Assembly: GCA_021797635.1 (NCBI GenBank)
Contig: JAJZZI010000126.1
Location: forward strand, 1-57,699
Reading direction: 5' to 3'
Length of the DNA stretch: 57,699 nt
Source of the DNA: Bacillota bacterium
GTDB taxonomy: Bacteria; Bacillota; Sulfobacillia; Sulfobacillales; Sulfobacillaceae
The notes under the pieces are model-generated. The model ran no database searches. It saw nothing but the letters and a program-made list of their open reading frames with translations, and was not told the DNA's origin. This document shows positions 3,204 through 34,165 of the stretch, one piece after another; the first letter of the stretch is position 1; every line of letters starts with the position of its first letter. The translations under genes and the position numbers were made by a program.

Positions 3204-4408
3204 AAGGGAGCCTGCGGTTCTAACTCGGATGGCATTTTCGCGTGTAAACAGCGAAAGCCAAGGCGGATAGCTAAAAGACCAAGCCATAGGCAGGCGGCCA
3301 AGCCGGCTAAGCACCACAGCACCCCGTGGATGGCAAGATGGTCCATGGCGTAGCCAATAAAGGCAGGGAAGACGGCCCCTCCGGCGCCAGCCAGGGCCGT
3401 GACCAGACTAGTGATGGTGCGGGTCATGCCGGGAAAGGTGTGATTGGCATACACCATTAGAACGGAATAAATGGCGGCCATGGCCAAGCCTAATCCGAAG
3501 ATGAGGGCGAAGCCTGCACCTTGGTGACGAACAGCGGTGAAGGCCAATAACACCAAAAGCGCCAGCGACACGCTAATCCAAAGATATTGGTCATATCGCA
3601 GGTGCCGCGCGGCCCAACCGATGGCGAGACGGCCCAGCACCATCGCTATCCAAAAGACGCTGGAACTTAATACCGCCACGTCGTTGGCGGTATGAAGACC
3701 CGTGGCAAAGATGGCGGGCATGAAGCTGTTGACACTGCCTTCTAGGCCGACGTAAATGAAGGTCATGAAGAGGAAAATGGCTAACATGGCGATCTTGGCC
3801 AATCTTCCCGGAAAGACCGGCGGGGGGGTCATGTCAGCGTCGCGATGATGCGAGGCCACGACGGGGTCCTTAGGGACTTCAATGGCCTGCCAAAAGAGCG
3901 CCAAGGCCAGGCTTAGACCGGAAATGAGCAGAAAGCTGAATCGCCAGTGGCCTAAGGCAATAAGGGCGCTCGCACAGGCGGGAAGAAGGAGGGCACCCAG
4001 ACCAAAAGAGACCTCGAGCCGACTCATGTAGATGGCCCGTTGTTCTACAAGCAACTCCAAGACCACGGTCGCTACGACCGTCTCTAGGGCAGAGGCGCCG
4101 ATGCCATTAAAGATTACCAAGAGATAGACCAAAGCCATCGGCGGTAGCAAGAATAGCGCCACTTGGGCGAGGCTAACGCATAGGGCAGCTGCCGAGAGGA
4201 TGTGACGAAGATGATACCGGGTCATGGCATGATAGACAAGCGGCACGCCAATCAGAAAGCCGATGGCCTGGGTAAATACTACGCGTCCGCCAACGGCATA
4301 AGAGGTGTGGTAGTAGCGAAGAAATTCCGGCATGATGGCGCCCAAAATGACGGCCGTGGTCCCTGATAGGGCATACATGCCATATGCTGCCCAAGCGAAT
4401 CGACGCAA
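3200..4408 (-). CDS. MFS transporter
   Basis: A 402-residue major facilitator superfamily permease with about 12 hydrophobic helices. The N-terminal half starts with WAAYGMYALSGTTAVILG and the middle has the basic/acidic loop (VPKDPVVASHHRDAD) separating the two six-helix bundles. The second half contains LGRLAIGWAARHLRYD, a degenerate form of the MFS loop motif GRxxDRxGR. The start is TTG at 4408. It is convergent with the mechanosensitive channel, overlapping it by 4 bases. The substrate is not predictable; the overall look is of a fucose/sugar- or drug-type exporter. Confidence 0.85.
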   Translation of the reverse strand: MRRFAWAAYGMYALSGTTAVILGAIMPEFLRYYHTSYAVGGRVVFTQAIGFLIGVPLVYHAMTRYHLRHILSAAALCVSLAQVALFLLPPMALVYLLVIFNGIGASALETVVATVVLELLVEQRAIYMSRLEVSFGLGALLLPACASALIALGHWRFSFLLISGLSLALALFWQAIEVPKDPVVASHHRDADMTPPPVFPGRLAKIAMLAIFLFMTFIYVGLEGSVNSFMPAIFATGLHTANDVAVLSSSVFWIAMVLGRLAIGWAARHLRYDQYLWISVSLALLVLLAFTAVRHQGAGFALIFGLGLAMAAIYSVLMVYANHTFPGMTRTITSLVTALAGAGGAVFPAFIGYAMDHLAIHGVLWCLAGLAACLWLGLLAIRLGFRCLHAKMPSELEPQAPF

Positions 4409-4504
4409 TATCGTGGCCCCCTTGGGGTATCATCGCACATTTACGGAGGTGCGGCGAGCGGCCTCATGATAAACTTAAGCCAGAAGTGCTAAAGGAGGGT
4501 AAGT

Positions 4505-4948
4505 ATGTTTGGTCAAAACCAACAAGTCACGGGAATGGAAGAGATACAGCGGGAGTTGCATCAGAAAAAGGAAGGCCAAGCCGCGACCAGCAATCTCAGC
4601 GCCATGGACTTTTGGCTGATTACGGATGCGGGTTATGAGGCACTAGGATTTGTCTTGGGAAACTCCGTGATGAGTATGGGCGTATCAGGAGGGATTGCGA
4701 CCGCCTTTAAGGGCCTGCAACGCGGTGAACTGACTCAATTGACCCAGCTCATGTACGCGGCTCGGGAGCTCTCCTTGCAACGTATGAAAGCAGAGGCCGA
4801 CGAGCTCGGCGCAGATGCCGTCGTGAACGTCCAGATAGAAATTATTCATCGCTCGGAAGAGATTATGGAAGTCGTCGCTACGGGGACGGCCGTCAAGCGC
4901 GTGGGCGCTCCCTCTGGCCGTCCGCTTACCTTGCAAGTCAAACAGTAA
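4505..4948 (+). CDS. YbjQ/UPF0145-family heavy-metal-binding-domain protein
   Basis: A 147-residue soluble protein. The C-terminal part (about residues 40-135) matches the YbjQ/UPF0145 family pattern: a glycine-containing start (FVLGNSVMSMGVSGG), a helix with YAARELSLQRMKAEADELGADAVV in parts, then the strand VNVQIEIIHRSEEIMEVVATGTAVK. The residues LGADAVVNVQ are the family hallmark. YbjQ proteins form pentamers or decamers of unknown function, sometimes annotated as heavy-metal binding, although no metal site is evident here. The ATG at 4505 sits 5 bases after AAAGGAGGG, an excellent ribosome site. About 35 extra N-terminal residues are charged and probably flexible. Confidence 0.82.
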   Translation: MFGQNQQVTGMEEIQRELHQKKEGQAATSNLSAMDFWLITDAGYEALGFVLGNSVMSMGVSGGIATAFKGLQRGELTQLTQLMYAARELSLQRMKAEADELGADAVVNVQIEIIHRSEEIMEVVATGTAVKRVGAPSGRPLTLQVKQ

Positions 4949-4984
4949 GACGGCCCTGCGCCGAAGCGAAGGAGTCGATCGACC

Positions 4985-5878
4985 TTGCGGATTTTCATGG
5001 TTGGGGCAGGCGGTATCGTACGCAAGATGTACCTCCCTCTACTTAGCAGTTGGCCTGGGATCGAAGTGGTTGGCCTCACTTCGCGCCGGCGTGAGTCGTA
5101 TGAACCTTTGGCCAGGGCGTTTCGCCTGCCGGCCGTAGCAGACGTCGACGCCGGGCTTAGATTAAAGCCCGACGTCGTTTTTATCCACAGTAGCACCGAT
5201 ACCCACAGCGAGTTGGTCGTGAAGGCGATGAAAGCGGGTATGGCCGTCTTTGTTGACAAACCGCTCGCGTACCATTTGCAAGAGGCCGAACGCGTGATCG
5301 AGGTGGCAGCCAGCACCGGCAGGGCGCTTCTTGTGGGATTTAATCGACGTTTTGCCCCATTTTACGTGAAGGCGAAAGCCGCTATCGCTCAACCGAGCCT
5401 CATCGTGGTGGAAAAACACCGCCGTGATCAGTGGTTTGGTGATCCTCGTGAAAGTCTGTTCGACGATTTCATCCATCCTTTGGACACGCTCTTAGGTCTT
5501 AGCGGTTCCATAGCGCATGCGGAAATGATTGTTCGGGAGGGACAGACATTGATTCAGGCGGATGCCGGACCGGGACGCATGGCGCTAATGCACCGGGGCA
5601 TCGCTTACGAGGGCGAGCGTTTAAGCATTGCGGGCGTCGAGGGACGCATCGAGGTAGAGGACCTGGAGCACTACCGGCATCTACGGCTTGGCCAGACCAC
5701 CCAAGAGAATTTTCTGTCCTGGCAAAGCATTGCTTGGCGCCGAGGTTTTCAGACCATGATCGAGTCGGTAGAGCAGGTGATTCAGGGGCATGGACGATGG
5801 CCGATTAGTCTAGACGACCTGTTCCTAAGCCATCGAGTGGTCGAGTCGTTGGCCGAAACGGGTAGCTTTCAAGCTTAG
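4985..5878 (+). CDS. Gfo/Idh/MocA-family NAD(P)-dependent oxidoreductase
   Basis: A 297-residue protein with the N-terminal Rossmann fold of the Gfo/Idh/MocA family. It starts RIFMVGAGGIVRKMYLPLL, where GAGGI is the dinucleotide loop. VFIHSSTDTH corresponds to the strand after the second helix, and FVDKPLAY contains the EKP/DKP motif whose lysine contacts cofactor and substrate. A histidine-bearing segment DDFIHPLDTLLGL occurs where the catalytic D..H pair normally lies. It is somewhat short for the family (typically 330-370), mainly in the C-terminal sheet. The start codon is TTG at 4985 after GAAGGAG. Substrate unknown; sugars, inositols or biliverdin-like compounds are used by relatives. 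Confidence 0.85.
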   Translation: MRIFMVGAGGIVRKMYLPLLSSWPGIEVVGLTSRRRESYEPLARAFRLPAVADVDAGLRLKPDVVFIHSSTDTHSELVVKAMKAGMAVFVDKPLAYHLQEAERVIEVAASTGRALLVGFNRRFAPFYVKAKAAIAQPSLIVVEKHRRDQWFGDPRESLFDDFIHPLDTLLGLSGSIAHAEMIVREGQTLIQADAGPGRMALMHRGIAYEGERLSIAGVEGRIEVEDLEHYRHLRLGQTTQENFLSWQSIAWRRGFQTMIESVEQVIQGHGRWPISLDDLFLSHRVVESLAETGSFQA

Positions 5879-8687: not shown

Positions 8688-9887
8688 GTGAAGTTAGGAA
8701 AATCGGATCTACTTCTTTGGGTAATGGCCTTCATATCGGCCGCTACCGTGGCGAACTTGTGGTACAATCAACCACTTTTAGGAGCCATGGCAGAGACCTT
8801 TGGTCGGGCGCCCGCCGTCCTAGGTAGGGTCGCAACGCTGACCCAAGCGGGCTATGCCATAGGGCTTTTCTTCTTTGTGCCGCTGGGAGATTTGGTCGAG
8901 CGTCGACGGCTCATCGTGCTTCTCACGGTGGCCGTGGGTCTTGCTTTAATTCTACAAAGCTCGGCACCGTCCCTGATCTGGCTGGAAATTGCCGCCGGTC
9001 TTGTTGGATTGACTACGCCCATCCCCCAAATCATCTTACCGCTGGTGGCCGACTTGTCGGATCCTGCGGGCCGTGGACGCGCGGTGGGCGTCGTGATGGG
9101 GGGGCTCCTAATTGGGATCTTGGCTGCGCGTACCATTGCGGGATTTGTGGCCAGCTGGCTAGGATGGCGAATGGTCTTTCGCGGGGCGGCCCTGCTCATG
9201 CTGATCGTGGCCCTTTTGGTGCGAAGATTCTTTCCCATCAGCCACCCGCACCCGACAAACCTACGTTACCGCCAAATTTTAGGTAGCCTTTGGCCACTCT
9301 TTCGAACTCAACCAGAACTTGCCTCCGCCGCGATGACCGGAGCAGCGCTATTTGCGACCTTCAGCGGGTTTTGGACCGCGCTGACGTTTTTGCTGCGTAA
9401 GGCCCCCTTTCACTACAGCCCTGAAGTCATTGGCCTATTTGGCCTGGTAGGGATCGGAGGAGCCAGTGTGGCGCCTCTGGCGGGCAGACTTGCGGACTCG
9501 GGCGATCCCCGCCGCACGGTAACGATGGCCTTATTCGGTTCAGCAATATCCATGGCCTGGCTTCTTTTGGCCCCTCGAACGGTGTGGGCTATCATCATCG
9601 GCATCGTATTACTCGACGTCGCGACGCAGTCGGGGCAGATTTCGAATCAATCCAGGATTTATTCCTTGAGCCATACGGCTCGTTCGCGCCTGAATACGGT
9701 CTATATGGTCTCATATTTTGTTGGTGGCGCGATGGGATCGGGCGTGGCCAGCATGGCCTGGGGATTTCTGGGTTGGCCGGGGGTGACGGCAGCGGGCATG
9801 GGGTTTTTGGCACTCGGAGGCTTGGCCCATCACTGGGGATACGTGAAGTCTAAGCCTCCGAGTGCGTCTCAAACGGGGCAAGGTTAA
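8688..9887 (+). CDS. MFS transporter
   Basis: A 399-residue major facilitator permease. The N-terminal half carries WYNQPLLGAMAETFGR and the loop 2-3 motif PLGDLVERRR, a good match to the MFS G-x-x-x-D-R-x-G-R-R pattern. The second half has the related PLAGRLADSGDPRR loop. About 12 helices are visible. The arrangement resembles the YnfM/CynX-type and multidrug members, but the substrate is not predictable. The GTG at 8688 is preceded by GGAGGGATG. The stop overlaps by a few bases the stop of the convergent galT. Confidence 0.87.
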   Translation: MKLGKSDLLLWVMAFISAATVANLWYNQPLLGAMAETFGRAPAVLGRVATLTQAGYAIGLFFFVPLGDLVERRRLIVLLTVAVGLALILQSSAPSLIWLEIAAGLVGLTTPIPQIILPLVADLSDPAGRGRAVGVVMGGLLIGILAARTIAGFVASWLGWRMVFRGAALLMLIVALLVRRFFPISHPHPTNLRYRQILGSLWPLFRTQPELASAAMTGAALFATFSGFWTALTFLLRKAPFHYSPEVIGLFGLVGIGGASVAPLAGRLADSGDPRRTVTMALFGSAISMAWLLLAPRTVWAIIIGIVLLDVATQSGQISNQSRIYSLSHTARSRLNTVYMVSYFVGGAMGSGVASMAWGFLGWPGVTAAGMGFLALGGLAHHWGYVKSKPPSASQTGQG

Positions 9888-10801
9888 ATCAGATAGCGAG
9901 CGAAAGCTGCTTCCACTAAGGGCCGTAGTCGGTGAGCCACCGTTTCGGGCAGCATGTCGCCCACGAACGCTCCCATGGCGAGCTCAGAACCGGCTAGATA
10001 TTTGATCTTGTCCCGCCCTCGCTCAATGGGCAGGAAGTCGAAACGCAGATGATATTGTTCGCGGCCAAAGTGATGGGCGGGAGCTTGATAGAGTGCTAAG
10101 ACTAAGGCCGTACGATGACCGAAGTAAGCGTCATAGGCCTGGTAGACCGTCTGAATGATGGCCATGGCCTCTTTGGCGGATGATTCCGGTATGGGAATCA
10201 TGTCACAGTGGTGCTTAAGCGGGTAAAGCGTCAATTGAAAAGGCATGCGCGCCGCCCAAGGGGCGATTAGTTGCCAGTCAGGAGTACTCAAGAGCGTGCG
10301 CGCTCCCAGATCCGGGCCATCGCCCAGGCAGAGGGCGCAGTGGGAGTTTGACCCGCGGATGGTTTCGCTGACCATGCGTGGCGGCAAAAAGGGATAGGCA
10401 TAGATTTGGCCATGGGGATGGGCAATGCTGGCGCCTACTTTTTTGCCGCGATTTTCAAAGACAAATACCTGAGCAACATCTGCACGGCGATTTAAGCACT
10501 GTGTGCGATCGCACCATGCATCCCAGATGGCTTGTGCGTGGCTCAGGGGCAGTGTCGCCAGATCAGCCCAATGATCGGCCGCATATACGACAATTTCGCT
10601 GTGGCCAGGGGCGTCAAACGCGGGGAAGCGATTATCGAACACGGCGACCTCAAAGGGTTCAGTGCCTACCTCAGTCCCGGGTCCCGGGCAAAAGGGACAG
10701 GGAGTCGCGTTGCCGGCAGAGACGGTTAGCGGTCGGATTTGCCGGTCGCCGGAGAGACTAATCCATGCGCCCGTCAATGGATCTTGGCGGATCTCAGGCA
10801 T
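9884..10801 (-). CDS. galT: Galactose-1-phosphate uridylyltransferase
   Basis: GalT (Leloir pathway, cytoplasm) swaps UMP between UDP-glucose and galactose-1-phosphate. The protein from ATG 10801 is 305 residues and begins MPEIRQDPLTGAW, the classical GalT start. Cys35 and Cys38 (PCPFC) match the structural metal site, and HPH at 128-130 inside AHPHGQIYAYP is the catalytic His-Pro-His triad whose last histidine carries the uridylyl group. The start at 10801 is chosen because AGGAGG lies 9 bases upstream inside the end of galE; the open frame upstream lacks GalT-like sequence. It overlaps galE by 8 bases, implying translational coupling. At 305 residues it is slightly shorter than E. coli GalT (348). 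Confidence 0.93.
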   Translation of the reverse strand: MPEIRQDPLTGAWISLSGDRQIRPLTVSAGNATPCPFCPGPGTEVGTEPFEVAVFDNRFPAFDAPGHSEIVVYAADHWADLATLPLSHAQAIWDAWCDRTQCLNRRADVAQVFVFENRGKKVGASIAHPHGQIYAYPFLPPRMVSETIRGSNSHCALCLGDGPDLGARTLLSTPDWQLIAPWAARMPFQLTLYPLKHHCDMIPIPESSAKEAMAIIQTVYQAYDAYFGHRTALVLALYQAPAHHFGREQYHLRFDFLPIERGRDKIKYLAGSELAMGAFVGDMLPETVAHRLRPLVEAAFARYLI

Positions 10802-11873
10802 GATCGCCATCCTCCTCCTGACTCGCTTGCCAGGCATCGCTGACCACGGCCTCGATGTTGGAGTGTCGAGGCTCCCACTTGAGCAGGAGCTTGGCCTGAT
10901 CAATGTCGGCGACTAGACGAGGCGGATCGCCGGCTCGCCGATCGGTTAACTGCGGCGGAACGGCATTGCCGCTGATTCGAGAAAACGTGTGGATAAGTTC
11001 CAACACGGAGGTGCCTTTGCCCGATCCGAGATTAATCGGCATCGGAGTTCCGCCGGTTGCCAGGTATCCGGCTGCACGGAGGTGCGCATCAACCAGATCG
11101 GCCACGTGAATATAGTCGCGAATGGCACTGCCATCCGGCGTGTCGTAGTCATGGCCATAGACCACGGGTTGCCTTCCCTGTCGGATAGCCGTGGCCATTA
11201 AGGGAAGGACATGCGTTTCTGGCTGATGGCGTTCTCGCACCGTACCAAGATGCCCGGCCGCATTGAAGTATCGCAAGGCAACGTAGGGCATTTGGTAGGC
11301 GCGATAGTAATCGTCAAGGATTTGCTCGAACTGTCGCTTGGTCGTTCCGTACGGTGAGAGAGGCTCCTTCTTAGCGGTCTCTGGGATGGGCACCGTTTCC
11401 GGGTTGCCGTAAACGCCCGCCGAAGAGGAGAACACGAGCGGAATGGGGGTGCCAAGGCGCAAGTGATCAAGCATATGAATCGCTTCGCTGACGTTTTGCT
11501 GATAGTACCGGGCCGGGTCGGACACCGATTCGGCTACGGAAATAAGGCCGGCACAGTGATAGACAACCTCTATCTGATAGCGTGCGCGAATAAACTCCCA
11601 GACCTCGAGGTCGCCCACGGAGCCACGGACCACATCGATCTTGGGCACCTGGCTAGGAATCTCTCTTACGTCAACCACGACCACCGTCTTCCCTTCCGCC
11701 CGAAGGCGGTAGGCGAGCGACTGCCCGATATACCCTAGTCCCCCGGTAATAATCGAAGCGGTGGGCAAAGCGGGTGCGGTGCTTGGCCGTCGATAGTAAT
11801 GAATCGTACGCCCGTCGGGCATGGATCGTGATGTATGCGTGGTCTTGTCGCTTTCTACGGACATGCGGGCCAT
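10794..11873 (-). CDS. galE: UDP-glucose 4-epimerase
   Basis: GalE interconverts UDP-galactose and UDP-glucose with bound NAD. The NAD-binding glycine loop GGLGYIG sits at residues 44-50, and the catalytic YxxxK is Y175-GTT-K179, preceded by the FSSSAGVYG strand (about 148-156). ALRYFNAAGH and the DGSAIRDYIHVADLVDAH segment are typical GalE substrate-site motifs. There are about 38 residues before the Rossmann fold, an unusual N-terminal extension. The true start may be ATG 11873 or ATG 11864, since AAGGAG lies only 2 bases before the former. The gene starts 8 bases after panB and overlaps galT, so panB-galE-galT form one reverse-strand operon. Confidence 0.93.
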   Translation of the reverse strand: MARMSVESDKTTHTSRSMPDGRTIHYYRRPSTAPALPTASIITGGLGYIGQSLAYRLRAEGKTVVVVDVREIPSQVPKIDVVRGSVGDLEVWEFIRARYQIEVVYHCAGLISVAESVSDPARYYQQNVSEAIHMLDHLRLGTPIPLVFSSSAGVYGNPETVPIPETAKKEPLSPYGTTKRQFEQILDDYYRAYQMPYVALRYFNAAGHLGTVRERHQPETHVLPLMATAIRQGRQPVVYGHDYDTPDGSAIRDYIHVADLVDAHLRAAGYLATGGTPMPINLGSGKGTSVLELIHTFSRISGNAVPPQLTDRRAGDPPRLVADIDQAKLLLKWEPRHSNIEAVVSDAWQASQEEDGDHA

Positions 11874-27971: not shown

Positions 27972-28111
27972 GGCAACGAACCTCCGACAACCAGGTTACG
28001 AGGTGGAAGCACCTGGAGAAAGTTGCTGTTTGACACCTCTTCATCCTAACACGGATGTCAATGGATGAGGGGGCTTTGGCCTTATTCCAACCGTTTCCAA
28101 CAAAATGGAGC

Positions 28112-28141
28112 TTGCATCTCTTTTGGCAGAGATGCTATACT
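28112..28141 (+). promoter_or_regulatory. Likely promoter of the ImuB/DnaE2 cassette
   Basis: A good -10 box TATACT (28136-28141) is preceded at 18 bases by TTGCAT (28112-28117), a weak -35. Transcription would start near 28148, just before the LexA-like box. A weak -35 is usual for damage-inducible promoters. Confidence 0.5.
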
Positions 28142-28151
28142 GGGTCTTATC

Positions 28152-28163
28152 AAACAAATGTTC
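28152..28163 (+). promoter_or_regulatory. LexA (SOS) operator candidate
   Basis: AAACAAATGTTC fits the Gram-positive LexA consensus GAAC-N4-GTTC with a single mismatch in the first base. It lies at about +5 to +16 relative to the predicted start of the mutagenesis cassette, a typical repressor position. The known SOS control of ImuB/DnaE2 operons supports it. Confidence 0.65.
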
Positions 28164-28224
28164 ACAAAGGTCAAAAACGGCACTTTGCATGCCTTTACTG
28201 GTGGAAGAAAGGAACGGGTTGCCC

Positions 28225-29346
28225 ATGGCGGTCGTGGTTTGGAGGCTTATTGGCTTGAACTTCACGGCAAGGCCGAATACGCCATATTGGATAGAGCGAG
28301 ATGGTCGGGTGTGCGACGTAGATGCTCTGGGGTGGAAACTTGGAGTGCGTCCTGACATGGATCACGCGGTAGCGCGGTGGCATTATCCCCAAGGCACTGC
28401 CATACCCTGGGATTCCCACAGGTTTACTGAGATTGAGGCAAATCTTCGAACTTGGCTGAGGCAGCGTATGGAACGATTTGAGCAGGCAAGTCCATGGGGC
28501 GGGTGGTGGGAGTGGCCTGCCCTTCGATTTAAGCAATTTGAACAACAGATGGCTGAAATTATTCCGAACTGGGCCCTTCAAATCAATGCGGGGGTAGCTT
28601 CCAATCTATTGTTGGCCAAGGCAGCGCTTGCCTTGGGTGAGGCATGGAGCCTTTCATTGTGGAGCGGACCGGGATTTCAAGCTTGGATCCTGCCGCCATC
28701 GCAAGAGGCCCAGTGGTATCCACAAATTCCGTTATCGCTGGTTGAAGGCATTTCCAAAGAGGCGATCCGCCAGTGCAATCTGCGTGGATGGAAAACGATA
28801 GGTCAGGTGCCAATAAGTTTTCGCCAGAAATTCCTATTAAAGTTAAAGTCAGAAGATACTGCCTCGCAGCGGTCACCCGAGACAATTTATGTGCAATACC
28901 ATTGGGAGCTAGCCGCAGAGGGGGGATTTGTAGAGGTTCTGACGCGATTGGCTACCCAGATCACAGAGGAATTGCAACGGCGGGCGGTAGGATTTCAACG
29001 ATTAGAGGTTACTTGGCGGGGACCATGGACGCCGGTAAGACATCAGCGAGAATGGCCAATGGCTACGGGAGAGCCAGGTAAAGTGCTTTTGCGGGTACTC
29101 GATTTTTTGAAAAGTCCTCCTCCAGGTCCGCCAGAAGCGATTGAAATCTTGGCAAGCGGTCTCGTGGCCTGGGGATCGGAACAGTTGCAATGGGGATTCT
29201 TCAGGCCATCCGGGGGGGACAAAGTTGGAAAGCAACGGTCCGATGTTCGTATGGGCATCAATCGCCGGGAAGCCATGTTGCAGTTTTGGGATCCATGGCG
29301 ATTTTCCCCCTCGGCAGACCTAAATGGAAAGAAGGGATTTAAATAA
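28225..29346 (+). CDS. ImuB-like inactive Y-family polymerase protein
   Basis: A 373-residue protein resembling the thumb and little-finger parts of Y-family polymerases as in ImuB, the adaptor that links DnaE2 to the beta clamp during mutagenic repair. INAGVASNLLLAKAAL (about residues 125-140) is the Y-family GxSxNxLLAKxA motif. IPLSLVEGISKEAIRQCNLRGWKTIGQVP (in part: LRGWKTIGQVP) is the helix-hairpin segment, and the little finger begins YVQYHWELAAEGG. The catalytic acidic residues of true polymerases are not evident, as expected for ImuB. Start: ATG 28225 or TTG 28219, both after AAAGGAA; the open frame extends to 28105 but that would place the operator inside the gene. It is somewhat shorter than proteobacterial ImuB. 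Confidence 0.78.
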   Translation: MAVVVWRLIGLNFTARPNTPYWIERDGRVCDVDALGWKLGVRPDMDHAVARWHYPQGTAIPWDSHRFTEIEANLRTWLRQRMERFEQASPWGGWWEWPALRFKQFEQQMAEIIPNWALQINAGVASNLLLAKAALALGEAWSLSLWSGPGFQAWILPPSQEAQWYPQIPLSLVEGISKEAIRQCNLRGWKTIGQVPISFRQKFLLKLKSEDTASQRSPETIYVQYHWELAAEGGFVEVLTRLATQITEELQRRAVGFQRLEVTWRGPWTPVRHQREWPMATGEPGKVLLRVLDFLKSPPPGPPEAIEILASGLVAWGSEQLQWGFFRPSGGDKVGKQRSDVRMGINRREAMLQFWDPWRFSPSADLNGKKGFK

Positions 29347-29573
29347 GAAAAGTTTTTGTCTGGACTAAAAATGGAGTACCTAAAGCTTTTCAAACTCGGA
29401 ATAAAGTCATTTCGGTGGTCGCGGTGCTAGATCTTTGGCGCGAGAGCGGAGAGTGGTGGGAGATGGCCCCCGAAGTATGGGTTTGGCGAGTCCAAGGTGA
29501 AAATCAGGGGGTGTATGAACTAGCACGTCATCCTGCCCCCGATCAGTGGTGGATTGATCGAATCTATGACTAA
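29343..29573 (+). CDS. DUF6504-like small protein, apparently with an ATA start
   Basis: A 76-residue open frame overlapping the imuB stop by 4 bases (ATAA). The sequence has VLDLWRESGEWWE in the middle and ends WWIDRIYD, the pattern of the DUF6504 domain that is often encoded beside Y-family and DnaE2 genes. The frame is blocked by a stop immediately upstream, and the first ATG/GTG/TTG codon occurs only after the conserved N-terminal part. GAAGGGA lies 7 bases before an ATA codon at 29343, so I infer initiation there; an internal GTG would give a truncated domain. Function unknown; it may be a fusion partner of ImuB elsewhere. No gene call would normally be made here. Confidence 0.66.
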   Translation: MRKVFVWTKNGVPKAFQTRNKVISVVAVLDLWRESGEWWEMAPEVWVWRVQGENQGVYELARHPAPDQWWIDRIYD

Positions 29574-29644
29574 GGGCATCCGCGATCTAGGCGTCGTATG
29601 AGGAGCACATCTAGGAAAGAAAGTAAAGAAAGAAGGGGTACGAC

Positions 29645-29782
29645 ATGGGGAAAGTAATTGCTTGGCCAAAGACCGTACCGGAACCTGAATCTCACCGAAC
29701 GGTGCGCCGTCGCTCAACCAAGCGATATCGGGTACGGGCGGGTTCCCTGCTCGATCGGGTATTGAGTATATACCTGCGATAA
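29645..29782 (+). CDS. 45-residue basic ORF inside the mutagenesis cassette
   Basis: ATG 29645 opens a 45-codon frame 7 bases after AGAAGGGG, a strong ribosome site, and it ends 7 bases before the first possible dnaE2 ATG. The peptide is strongly basic: the middle contains RTVRRRSTKRYRVRAG and the end is LLDRVLSIYLR. It has no cysteine or membrane segment. The position and the good ribosome site suggest a real gene co-translated with dnaE2. I recognise no family. It could be a nucleic-acid-binding or clamp-related peptide, or a leader that couples translation. Confidence 0.55.
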   Translation: MGKVIAWPKTVPEPESHRTVRRRSTKRYRVRAGSLLDRVLSIYLR

Positions 29783-29819
29783 AGGCTGAATGAGAGACTA
29801 TGCGGCAAGGGATGAGATG

Positions 29820-32800
29820 ATGGCAGGGGTTCAATTGCATGTGCATTCCACGTTTTCGTTTTTAAATGGGGCCTCTTCACCCAAGGATTTGATGGAATCG
29901 GCTGCGGTCCATGGGATCTCGGCGGTGGCCCTGACGGACATGCATCGAATTTCAGGAGTGGTGCCCTTTCTCCGAGCTGCCGCCGAAACCCGAGTGAAAC
30001 CCATTATCGGAGCCGAAGTGGAGGTCGGCGGAATGGGGCACCTTGTCTTGCTCGCCTCTGGTCAGCCTGCCTATAGGGCTCTAACTGAGTTGCTAACGGA
30101 GGCGCACTTGAACCATCCTCGCCATCAACCTGGGGTGGATTGGAGTTCCCTTGAGCGACATGGATCCAACCTTATCGCTCTAACGGGAGATCGCAGCGGT
30201 ATGATGGCACAAGCTTGGTTTAGGGGAGGCCGCCATCGCCTCCTCGATCGAGTACGGCAGTTGCAAACGGTGTTTTCGCCAGGCCGTTTATATCTAGAAA
30301 TCACCAGCGATTGGCTACCCGGCAACCGGCGGTTTTTTGGAGCGCTAGCCGATCTAGCGGAATTCACCGGAGTTCCCCTAGTGGCCACCGCCGCTGCCTA
30401 CTATGCGAATAAAGAGGATTTTCCGTTATTTGACCTAATGACGTGCATCCGGCTAGGCCAGTCCGTTTCGGAGGTCCACCCAGAGCGTCGACTAAATTCG
30501 GAAAACTATCTCAAGGCGTGGCCCGAAATGGAAGAGGCGCTCGCATCATGGCCTAGGGCACTGGAAAATGCCATCCATTTGGCCGAACGCATTGAATCCC
30601 CGGATTTGCTCAATAAGCGTCGTGCTCCCGCCTATGAACGGGTGCCACGCGGGATGAAGGCAATAGACTATTTGGTTTCCCTGGTGCGCAAGGGGGCACG
30701 CCGACGATATGGCCAGCAGGTGTCGAAGGTATGGCCTCGCATTCGAAACGAACTGGCCATCATCCAAGACCTTCATTTTGTAGACTACTTCTTAGTCGTC
30801 TGGGACGTAGCCGAGTTTGCTCGTCGTTCTGGGATCCGGTTTGCAGGACGGGGTTCGGCAGCGGACTCGGTGGTGGCCTATTGCCTTGGAATTACTCAAG
30901 TAGACGCCTTCCATCGCGGTCTCCTGTTTGAACGTTTTATGAGCCGAGAGCGCAGAGAAGCTCCTGATATCGATATTGATTTTGACGCTAGTCGACGAGA
31001 CGAGGTGGAGGCATATGTTGTTCAATCATATGGGGCGGAACGCGTGGCTCGGGTCGCTACTTACCAAACCTATCGGCAAAGATTGGCGCTTCGCGACGTG
31101 GGCAAAGCCTTAAATTTTCCGTCAGAGGTCCTCGATCGCTTGGCCAAATCTCTACCTGAAAAGCCGATTGCTCGAATCCTTGAGGAGTGGCAGGAAATTC
31201 CTGAACTACGTCAATATGAGAATGAAGACGTCTTAAAACGCGTGCTTACCTGGGCGGAGAAGATAGAAGGCGTTCCCCGCCATTTGGGTACGCATTTGGG
31301 AGGTGTAGTGGTAAGCCGCGATCCATTGTCCTGGGTGAGTCCACGAGAACGTTCGGCTAAGGGGATTCAGGTGGTTCCTTTTGATAAGCGGGATGTGGAA
31401 GATCTAGGGCTATTAAAATTGGATCTGCTTTCTCTGCGCACCTTTACCGCGGTGGAAATCGCTACCCAAAAAATTGCCGAAGTCCATCCCGACTTTTCCT
31501 ATGACACCATTGCGCTGACTGATGATAAGACCTATGCTCGACTCCAAGCAGGAGAGGGGATTGGAGTGTTTCAGCTCGAAAGCCCGGCTCAAAGATCGCT
31601 TGCGCTGCGCCTGCAGCCGGATCGTTGGGAAGATATCGTGGCTAGCTTGGCATTAATTCGACCAGGCCCAATCAAAGGGAACATGGTTGATCCCTTCATA
31701 GCCCGCCGACGCGGGGAAGAGCCCATCACTTACCTTCACCCGCTGCTCGTGCCAATCTTATCCAAGACGTTTGGAGTCGTCCTTTTTCAGGAACAAGTCA
31801 TTGCCATAGCTACGACGTTAGCGGGATTTTCGGCAGGAGAGGCAGATAGCCTGCGTCGGTTGATGACTCACGCCCGTTCGCCGAGCGAAATGGAGAAGAT
31901 GGGAGAAACCTTTAGGTCGCGAGCCGTGGCTCGAGGAATCTCCAAAGAGGTCGCCGATGAAGTGTTTAGGCAACTCTTGGGTTATGCGAGTTATGGCTTT
32001 AACGAAGCGCATGCCGCAGCGTTTGCTGAGACGGCGTATCGGACCGCCTACTTACTAGAACATCATCCGGCCCAGTTTTTTCTGGGATTGTTCAATGCAG
32101 AGCCCTTGGGATATTACCCCATTGATGTTCTGCTGGTGGAAGCTCGGCGCCGGGGGATTTCTATTTTGCCTATCGATATTAATCAAAGCGATGTCCAAGC
32201 GACGTTGCCCGATCCACACGGCATTCGTGTTGGACTAAAATTTTTGCAAGGTATCAGCCTGGCAGAAACGAACACTTTGGTTGAACGGCGACCGCCCACC
32301 GGGTATGTCCATCCTATGGAAGTGGTGGAACGTGGGGGGGCGTCAATGGATATCGTGTTGCGAATGATTCGCGTGGGGGCGTTTGATCAAATTGTCTCTA
32401 ATCGCCAGCAACTTTTGACTGAGACCCGAGCAGATAACCGACTCATCCTTCGTGCGCCAGAGTCGGAAGATTCTGGGTGGAGCCGAACGCAGCAGGTGAT
32501 GATGGACTATCGCTTTTTGGGCTTTGGCCAACACGAGCAATGGCTAGGTCCATGGAGATCTCAGCTGATAACTCAGGGCTACATGACGCTTTCCGAGGTA
32601 AAAAAAGTACCATTGGGCAAAATGGTGCGAGTGGTGGGGTGTCTGATTCGCCCGCATCGACCACCGACACGTAGTGGGCGGTTGGTGGTATTCTTTTCGT
32701 TGTTGGATGAAACGGGGGTGCTGGAGGCGCGATTAAACGACCTACGGTATCAGAAATATGGGCAGTGGTTGTTTGGCTCGGTTCATCCCGTAATTGAGGT

Positions 32801-32873
32801 GGTAGGGCGGACAGAAGCTGGAGGAATTGAAGTGTACGCCATTACTCCTTGGACAGCAGAGGTTAATCGGTGA
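29820..32873 (+). CDS. dnaE2: Error-prone DNA polymerase DnaE2 (Pol III alpha type)
   Basis: A 1017-residue C-family polymerase of the DnaE2 type, which performs damage-induced translesion synthesis. The N-terminal PHP domain starts VQLHVHSTFSFLNGASS with H7 and H9. The palm contains GRGSAADSVVAYCLGIT and the catalytic acidic motif PDIDIDFD (D383, D385, D387). Fingers include HLGTHLGGVVVSRDPL and ASYGFNEAHAAAFAETAY, and a C-terminal OB-fold segment VVGCLIRPHRPP is present. It lacks the long C-terminal tail of replicative DnaE1 (about 1150 residues). The start may be ATG 29820, 29817 or 29790; the first matches homologue starts and AAGGGATGAG lies before it. It is the main catalytic gene of the cassette. 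Confidence 0.93.
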   Translation: MAGVQLHVHSTFSFLNGASSPKDLMESAAVHGISAVALTDMHRISGVVPFLRAAAETRVKPIIGAEVEVGGMGHLVLLASGQPAYRALTELLTEAHLNHPRHQPGVDWSSLERHGSNLIALTGDRSGMMAQAWFRGGRHRLLDRVRQLQTVFSPGRLYLEITSDWLPGNRRFFGALADLAEFTGVPLVATAAAYYANKEDFPLFDLMTCIRLGQSVSEVHPERRLNSENYLKAWPEMEEALASWPRALENAIHLAERIESPDLLNKRRAPAYERVPRGMKAIDYLVSLVRKGARRRYGQQVSKVWPRIRNELAIIQDLHFVDYFLVVWDVAEFARRSGIRFAGRGSAADSVVAYCLGITQVDAFHRGLLFERFMSRERREAPDIDIDFDASRRDEVEAYVVQSYGAERVARVATYQTYRQRLALRDVGKALNFPSEVLDRLAKSLPEKPIARILEEWQEIPELRQYENEDVLKRVLTWAEKIEGVPRHLGTHLGGVVVSRDPLSWVSPRERSAKGIQVVPFDKRDVEDLGLLKLDLLSLRTFTAVEIATQKIAEVHPDFSYDTIALTDDKTYARLQAGEGIGVFQLESPAQRSLALRLQPDRWEDIVASLALIRPGPIKGNMVDPFIARRRGEEPITYLHPLLVPILSKTFGVVLFQEQVIAIATTLAGFSAGEADSLRRLMTHARSPSEMEKMGETFRSRAVARGISKEVADEVFRQLLGYASYGFNEAHAAAFAETAYRTAYLLEHHPAQFFLGLFNAEPLGYYPIDVLLVEARRRGISILPIDINQSDVQATLPDPHGIRVGLKFLQGISLAETNTLVERRPPTGYVHPMEVVERGGASMDIVLRMIRVGAFDQIVSNRQQLLTETRADNRLILRAPESEDSGWSRTQQVMMDYRFLGFGQHEQWLGPWRSQLITQGYMTLSEVKKVPLGKMVRVVGCLIRPHRPPTRSGRLVVFFSLLDETGVLEARLNDLRYQKYGQWLFGSVHPVIEVVGRTEAGGIEVYAITPWTAEVNR

Positions 32874-32887
32874 GGAGGCCAGGCAAG

Positions 32888-33448
32888 GTGGATACTGGCG
32901 CTAAATTTGACTGGACAGAAGAAGTATATGATTATCGCCGGCGGGGCACCTATATCATCAGCGTGTCCGATGGCGAGCGTAGTCACATGCATGGAGGATG
33001 CTGGGTGAGCCCGGTGTCGCACAAGCCTCCGCGTATGGGAGTCGCTATGCCTAAAGAAATGGAGGGTTCTCGCATCGTGGTTCGCGGTCGACGCTTCGGG
33101 CTGTCTTTACTTGCCGAAGACCAACGCGACCTCATGACCCGATTCTTTCAGGGAGCGCAAACGCCGGCCGCCTTAGGTGAGGGCGAAATTACCTATGGAG
33201 TTCAGACGGGCGTGCCTCTTTGGTCTAACGCGGTGACGCAATTTGAATGCTGGCTTGAGCAATATGTGGACCTAGGAGATTTTCTTTGGCTTATTGGTAA
33301 GACGGTTTCCGCTACCCTTTCGCGCCCTGTGGCCGATATGTTGGCCAATGATATTGGACCCATACCGAAAACGCGGGTGCCTTTTCGCGGGTACGATGAT
33401 GTGCGACTGTTGCCGGATCCCGTATTGGACGGCGCTCCGATGGGCTGA
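32888..33448 (+). CDS. Flavin-reductase-like (FMN-binding split barrel) protein
   Basis: A 186-residue protein with the flavin reductase-like split-barrel pattern. RGTYIISVSDGERSHMHGGCWVSPVS forms the first strands (in part: GTYIISVSDGE, then MHGGCWVSPVS), and the flavin site follows with PPRMGVAMPKEMEGSRIV. Later GQ-like segments are replaced by FFQGAQTPAALGEGEITY. GTG 32888 is chosen because GAGGAGG is 9 bases upstream; a GTG at 32870 overlaps the dnaE2 stop. It directly follows dnaE2 with no room for a promoter, so it is the last gene of that transcript. Its role with a polymerase is not obvious, and the partner oxygenase is not nearby. Confidence 0.75.
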   Translation: MDTGAKFDWTEEVYDYRRRGTYIISVSDGERSHMHGGCWVSPVSHKPPRMGVAMPKEMEGSRIVVRGRRFGLSLLAEDQRDLMTRFFQGAQTPAALGEGEITYGVQTGVPLWSNAVTQFECWLEQYVDLGDFLWLIGKTVSATLSRPVADMLANDIGPIPKTRVPFRGYDDVRLLPDPVLDGAPMG

Positions 33449-33533: not shown

Positions 33534-33563
33534 TTGACCAAAGCATTATCGGCCATTATAATG
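33534..33563 (+). promoter_or_regulatory. Promoter of the tRNA cluster
   Basis: TTGACC (33534-33539) and TATAAT (33558-33563) are 18 bases apart, ending 33 bases before the first tRNA. This is a strong vegetative promoter. Confidence 0.8.
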
Positions 33564-33596
33564 GAGCATGCTGTTGGCGGTGAGTTGATAGCTTTG

Positions 33597-33671
<75 letters not shown>

Positions 33672-33674
33672 TGT

Positions 33675-33750
33675 GACCCCATGGTCTAGAGGCCTAGGAC
33701 ATCACCCTTTCAAGGTGGTAACCCGGGTTCGAATCCCGGTGGGGTCACCA
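33675..33750 (+). tRNA. tRNA-Glu (anticodon TTC)
   Basis: Acceptor GACCCCA pairs with TGGGGTC; the anticodon arm is CACC-CTTTCAA-GGTG and the T arm CCGGG-TTCGAAT-CCCGG. CCA is encoded. It follows tRNA-Ala by 3 bases. Confidence 0.94.
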
Positions 33751-33756
33751 TGAATT

Positions 33757-33833
33757 GGGCCATTAGCTCAGTTGGTTAGAGCATCCGCCTTTTAAGCGGA
33801 GTGTCGAAGGTTCGAGTCCTTCATGGCCCACCA
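33757..33833 (+). tRNA. tRNA-Lys (anticodon TTT)
   Basis: Acceptor GGGCCAT pairs with ATGGCCC; anticodon arm TCCGC-CTTTTAA-GCGGA; T arm with TTCGAGT loop; CCA encoded. Confidence 0.95.
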
Positions 33834-33842
33834 TTTTGTTAC

Positions 33843-33919
33843 AGGCCAGTAGCTCCAATTGGTAGAGCAGCGGTCTCCAAAACCGCCTGTTGGGGGTTCG
33901 AGTCCCTCCTGGCCTGCCA
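33843..33919 (+). tRNA. tRNA-Trp (anticodon CCA)
   Basis: Acceptor AGGCCAG pairs with CTGGCCT, G discriminator as is typical for tRNA-Trp; anticodon arm GCGGT-CTCCAAA-ACCGC; CCA encoded. Confidence 0.95.
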
Positions 33920-33922
33920 TTT

Positions 33923-33996
33923 GCGGGTGTAGCTCAATGGTAGAGCCTCAGCCTTCCAAGCTGATTACGTGGGTTCGATTCCCATCACCCGCTCCA
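33923..33996 (+). tRNA. tRNA-Gly (anticodon TCC)
   Basis: Acceptor GCGGGTG pairs with CACCCGC, U discriminator; anticodon arm TCAGC-CTTCCAA-GCTGA; short D loop typical of tRNA-Gly; CCA encoded. Confidence 0.95.
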
Positions 33997-34003
33997 TATC
34001 AAA

Positions 34004-34079
34004 GGGGCTTTAGCTCAGCTGGGAGAGCGCCTGCTTTGCACGCAGGAGGTCAGCGGTTCGATCCCGCTAAGCTCCACCA
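34004..34079 (+). tRNA. tRNA-Ala (anticodon TGC)
   Basis: Acceptor GGGGCTT pairs with AAGCTCC with one G-U; anticodon arm CCTGC-TTTGCAC-GCAGG; CCA encoded. It is the second alanine isoacceptor in the cluster. Confidence 0.95.
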
Positions 34080-34089
34080 TGAGACAAAT

Positions 34090-34165
34090 TGGGGAGTCGC
34101 CAAGTTGGTAAGGCACGGGACTTTGGATCCCGCATGCGCAGGTTCGAGTCCTGCCTCCCCAGCCA
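34090..34165 (+). tRNA. tRNA-Gln (anticodon TTG)
   Basis: Acceptor TGGGGAG pairs with CTCCCCA, G discriminator as usual for tRNA-Gln; anticodon arm CGGGA-CTTTGGA-TCCCG; CCA encoded. It is the last gene of the cluster, and the accessory patch begins after it. Confidence 0.95.

Follow-up and report, generated by a model that had tools for sequence, protein, structure and literature searches.

The locus described here raises the question of what kind of DnaE2 polymerase system a Sulfobacillus-like bacterium possesses, and of what a gene of only 45 codons is doing in the middle of it. The genes occupy positions 28151-33448 on the + strand of a 57.7-kb stretch of DNA (contig JAJZZI010000126.1; the whole stretch is hereafter called the window), which comes from an uncultured Sulfobacillaceae relative whose draft genome (G000) amounts to 3.06 Mb. 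A LexA-type operator is followed by an imuB-like gene, a DUF6504 gene, an open reading frame (ORF) of 45 amino acids (aa), dnaE2 and a flavin-reductase-like gene (FR; Table 1). This gene order had been read from the sequence alone in the original prediction, and profile matches and inspection of the ORFs agreed with it. The operon is a mutasome of an already described type, probably induced by DNA damage to judge from its upstream region, and the small protein appears to be undescribed and, by its distribution, strictly linked to the cassette.

An ORF of 43-62 aa with the signature (G/A)K(V/I)IxFP...G..YRIRPxS...R is found in every Sulfobacillaceae locus where the gap between DUF6504 and dnaE2 is readable. 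Strong matches were obtained in 27 of the 34 family genomes searched, i.e., in 27 of the 28 that bear a cassette. The only cassette without it (G019) is interrupted by the end of the contig, and the small protein is absent from the six family genomes without DnaE2 (G003, G011, G012, G013, G024, and G049). Its position between DUF6504 and dnaE2 is constant, each match being flanked by one or both of them; in L135 an IscB insertion parts the small ORF from DUF6504. The hidden Markov model (HMM) of the small protein also recovered loci outside its training set (L009, L012, and L019, E 1e-14 to 1e-15). Residues I5, P8, and R31 are invariant and S34 is nearly so, and the ratio of nonsynonymous to synonymous substitution rates (dN/dS), which is 0.2 between the window and L035 and 0.2-0.5 in those other close pairs whose dS is finite, indicates purifying selection. 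Family-wide conservation and dN/dS rule out a chance ORF. The extra component suspected in the original prediction thus exists as a gene conserved in relatives, and it is the role of its product as a subunit that we infer. No small protein was found beside the cassettes of the neighboring families f2 and f3, in which DUF6504 abuts dnaE2, and among 399 genomes of the phylum no full-length match was detected outside Sulfobacillaceae (weak partial matches reached at most 23 bits). The protein has no significant match in Pfam or PHROGs and none in PDB, and no report on it was found in the open-licence PMC literature.

The motif CAAACAAATGTTCA matches the Gram-positive LexA box better than any other site of the window and has a single exact copy in the genome. 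It is conserved as (C/A)(G/A)AACAAATGTT(C/T) upstream of imuB at all 22 testable loci, the window included, and all 22 upstream regions score at least 10.5 (perfect six-base core), as against 56 of 2028 control windows (2.8%) from the same loci. The LexA-like box noted earlier is therefore real and conserved. Two near-consensus boxes lie at lexA of L105, a relative at the order level. Conservation of the motif makes control of the operon by LexA likely. The start of imuB originally placed at 28105 is untenable, because the box would then fall inside the gene; aligned homologues begin near the ATG at 28225, which leaves the box upstream. The TATACT seen by eye just ahead of the operator was missed by the consensus promoter scan and is of low confidence. 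The number of promoter-like matches was near chance (7 found vs. 4.3 expected), which is weakly in favor of the proposed lack of an internal promoter.

In a maximum-likelihood tree the polymerase clusters with DnaE2 of Sulfobacillia and other Bacillota, while the 930-aa DnaE of the same genome and seven other replicative DnaE form a separate clade (support 100/100). The tree rules out a replicative DnaE1 or DnaE3 and bears out the DnaE2-type assignment; branch support elsewhere in it is limited, and the row L025, a wrong-frame ORF, was disregarded. Alicyclobacillaceae cassettes of the same layout share the Bacillota DnaE2 group with weak support (86/76). Among NCBIfam models the protein matches NF004225 best, with 791 bits where the cut-off is 939. 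The genome also encodes PolC. With the small ORF and the LexA box conserved and the polymerase set apart from replicative DnaE, the original prediction stands up to all three of the refuting conditions that it named.

The ImuB-like protein is very divergent. PF00817 matches it below threshold (E 0.0097) and matches 14 of 20 homologues, and hhalign aligns it to Agrobacterium ImuB with E 3.4e-6. Its AlphaFold model (predicted local distance difference test, pLDDT, 82) retrieves Dpo4, Rev1, and pol kappa in Foldseek with E 1e-16 to 1e-17, at whole-chain TM-scores of only ~0.4, as expected if the domains differ in orientation. By inspection, the aligned ImuB sequences lack the palm carboxylates and have WEWP instead of a DE motif. 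Model and alignment support the earlier naming of the protein as ImuB-like, here a catalytically inactive Y-family adaptor (iPolY) encoded in a dnaE2 cassette. The glutamine of the clamp-type motif in its disordered tail is invariant in 20 sequences, and the position and type of the motif suggest that QLQWGFF binds the beta clamp.

The Pfam model of DUF6504 also weakly matches the C-terminus of Agrobacterium ImuB (residues 428-498, E 0.0027; hhalign E 4.9e-4); no such match was seen in Burkholderia ImuB. In the window and in aligned relatives the domain has a reading frame separate from that of ImuB, which supports its identification as the ImuB-C domain split from ImuB. A fusion of the two overlapping frames by programmed frameshifting is ruled out, as relatives have separate starts. 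The reading frame and homology are sound (62% identity to L035 over 74 aa), yet the homologous start is not an ATG, GTG or TTG: the window reads ATA at 29343-29345, and the gene of the closest relative begins with GTG there. Initiation at the nearest standard codon downstream, GTG at 29415, would cost about one third of the domain, and the ATA may be either a genuine start or an assembly error.

Table 1. Features of the dnaE2 operon and its upstream region in the window.
Feature	Position	Strand	Remarks
Possible -10 element TATACT	28136..28141	+	Just upstream of operator; weak, no good -35
LexA-type operator CAAACAAATGTTCA	28151..28164	.	Conserved upstream of imuB; lone exact copy in genome
imuB-like, inactive Y-family polymerase (iPolY), 373 aa	28225..29346	+	Homologues, profiles, AlphaFold/Foldseek
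Putative beta-clamp-binding motif QLQWGFF	29182..29202	+	In disordered tail of ImuB; relatives have QLxWW
Conserved ImuB C-terminal motif RRExLLQxWDPWR	29263..29301	+	Placed where other mutasomes have RecA-NT motif
DUF6504, stand-alone ImuB-C domain	29343..29573	+	PF20114 E 4.5e-8; alignment of 26; ATA at start
45-aa small protein	29645..29782	+	Signature (G/A)K(V/I)IxFP...YRIRPxS...R; family-wide conservation
dnaE2, 1027 aa	29790..32873	+	Palm aspartates intact (PDIDIDF, LKLDLL); PHP metal site partly degenerate
Flavin-reductase-like protein (PF01613)	32870..33448	+	PF01613 E 1.9e-16; GTG start overlaps dnaE2 stop by 4 nt

The adaptor domain is thus split off, as had been proposed, but split ImuB with DnaE2 has already been published for Bacillota (PMC6511836, PMC12926913) and the layout is not new. 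A DnaE2-iPolY-ImuB-C(-RecA) arrangement without ImuA was described in 2019 from Kyrpidia tusciae (PMC6511836, Fig. 8) and was named the DnaE2X-type system in 2026 (PMC12926913). We found the split iPolY-ImuB-C-DnaE2 layout also in Alicyclobacillus, in other Bacillota loci and in one Abditibacteriota plasmid. The plasmid, pIAD-21 (L173 1145-7216), has the order lexA, 78-aa ORF, iPolY, DUF6504 and dnaE2, with parts of it unannotated. The window resembles the K. tusciae module in having an inactive Y-family gene, a stand-alone ImuB-C and dnaE2 in the same order, no imuA in the cassette and a PolC-bearing genome. It differs in the small gene which Sulfobacillaceae add between ImuB-C and dnaE2, in the FR that follows in some genera, and in an iPolY tail with the RRExLLQxWDPWR end and no recognized RecA-NT motif. 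The ImuA-ImuB-DnaE2 mutasomes of M. tuberculosis, P. aeruginosa, and C. crescentus likewise combine an inactive Y-family scaffold, ImuB-C, DnaE2 and a LexA-type operator; in Sulfobacillaceae, however, imuA is missing from the cassette, ImuB-C is separate rather than fused, and the small gene is extra. No imuA was recognized elsewhere in the window genome either, which besides one RecA has a single weak RecA-fold match of 19 bits. A small accessory subunit alongside a Y-family protein is also known from Pol V and the YqjW-YqjX(YolD)-RecA complexes, but the Sulfobacillaceae small protein has no UmuD or YolD similarity (no Pfam match) and accompanies DnaE2.

Taken together, we consider it quite probable that the locus is a damage-inducible DnaE2-iPolY-ImuB-C translesion-synthesis operon with a lineage-specific small subunit, in which both complex formation and the role of the subunit are deduced. 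LexA would occupy the operator just ahead of imuB until DNA damage leads to its RecA-stimulated cleavage, whereupon transcription of the operon would set in and its genes, which are short and in many cases overlap, would be co-translated. ImuB, with a fold lacking catalytic residues and a flexible tail that carries the QLxWW clamp-type motif and the RRExLLQxWDPWR end, would serve as the scaffold, and DUF6504 would provide the ImuB-C beta-domain, which in models of the M. tuberculosis proteins contacts the PHP domain of DnaE2 (PMC6511836, PMC12926913). DnaE2, its polymerase site intact and its PHP site degenerate, would copy across lesions with errors. The small protein, which has an IxFP arm and for which a C-terminal helix is predicted, would most likely fold upon binding ImuB-C, DnaE2 or the ImuB tail and act as an accessory or regulatory subunit. 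In a subset of genomes FR would ride on the same transcript, perhaps providing reduced flavin to a stress-linked enzyme.

Several observations weigh against this model. The predicted SOS-type character holds as far as the operator resembles the Gram-positive LexA box, but no clear box was found at the lexA and recA promoters of Sulfobacillaceae (the lexA promoter of the window genome lies off the contig); LexA is therefore the presumed regulator of the operon. The AlphaFold model of the small protein is mostly disordered (pLDDT 67), the C-terminal helix being its only informative part, which is nevertheless compatible with folding upon contact with a partner. The net charge of the small protein ranges from -3 to +11, which argues against simple DNA binding, and the basic character attributed to the 45-residue ORF is not a family trait. 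Also, the RecA-NT motif, recognized in Alicyclobacillaceae iPolY tails, was not recognized in those of Sulfobacillaceae by an HMM built from Alicyclobacillaceae and Abditibacteriota tails, although known ImuBs also escape this HMM and RecA scores weakly with it. The Sulfobacillaceae sequences accordingly lend no support to the RecA link proposed in the published model.

It is tempting to go further and to regard the small protein as a new obligate subunit of the DnaE2 mutasome, which in Sulfobacillaceae does some of the work in assembly or control that elsewhere falls to ImuA or to the RecA-NT contact. This can be put forward only tentatively, the balance being somewhat against it. Replacement of RecA binding by the small protein is not claimed, because the RecA-NT test has limited power and the WDPWR end is also present in related families without the small protein. 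Alternatively, the small ORF could be a cis-acting leader or spacer for translation of dnaE2, by coupling or attenuation, with a peptide that has no function itself. It often starts in overlap with the stop codon of DUF6504 and ends close to the dnaE2 start, and the modeled peptide is largely disordered, all of which would suit such an element. Nevertheless, the amino acid signature is kept, at the dN/dS given above, while the nucleotides diverge, the gap to dnaE2 varies in length (L048, L059), and the cassettes of neighboring families do without any spacer gene; we thus regard a leader as improbable.

Small SOS-induced checkpoint proteins such as SidA and YneA are known, and the peptide might likewise act elsewhere in the SOS response, as a cell-division checkpoint or nucleoid protein that is merely co-transcribed. 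YRIRPGS bears a superficial resemblance to the beginning of a LysM repeat such as that of YneA, but there is no LysM match and, by inspection, no obvious transmembrane segment. The strict placement between ImuB-C and DnaE2 and the absence from genomes without DnaE2 also speak against a checkpoint or nucleoid role, which seems unlikely.

The case of FR is different. Close homologues, 64-71% identical, are present in 10 genomes of the family (that of the window and nine of genera g2 and g9), and in all 10 they adjoin dnaE2 directly from behind, with starts that overlap or abut. This would be expected of a true functional partner, one giving reduced flavin to a damage-linked enzyme, e.g., in nucleotide supply. 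However, FR is absent from most cassette-bearing genera: by any match it occurs in 4 of 11, and it adjoins dnaE2 in three only (g1, g2, and g9), so that, of the five-gene order seen in the window, the small ORF is kept family-wide and FR is not. In the closest genus (L035) an FR remnant with an IS607-like recombinase lies at the FR site (9110-9620), in L036 an IS1634-like transposase element is at the same site (9433-11193; both element types were named by eye), and a stray extra copy in G008 (C106) is far from any cassette. FR is confined to a subset of genera, and in the closest genus its sequence remnant points to loss through an inserted transposon; the gene is thus an optional rider, not needed for the mutasome, and a functional partnership is doubtful. 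No relevant literature on DnaE2 with a flavin reductase, or on DnaE2 in Sulfobacillus, was found among open-licence PMC papers.

Mutations induced by damage, among them those that make M. tuberculosis drug resistant, are driven by DnaE2 mutasomes, and the control of mutasome assembly is still under study. A cassette with a gained, strictly co-inherited small protein gives experiments a minimal point of access to this assembly, and if the small protein is an obligate subunit, the lineage has added a component to its mutagenesis machine. Active Y-family polymerase was not detected in the window genome, nor in 12 of 18 other cassette-bearing family genomes checked, and therefore these bacteria may bypass lesions mainly by means of the cassette.

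Some cassettes of Sulfobacillus relatives contain RRXRR and HNH (IscB-like) ORFs (4144-5439 in both L044 and L050, 4468-5754 in L049), and these insertions occupy two different gene junctions. Genome G020 has two complete cassettes, C106 (L050) and C116 (L048), and both of them include a small ORF and FR. A role of the operon in anti-phage defence was also considered and rejected, PADLOC giving no match. Behind the operon, the stretch 33534-34164 carries seven or more tRNA-like genes in an array; TTGACC-17-TATAAT at 33534-33562 is a strong match to a promoter.

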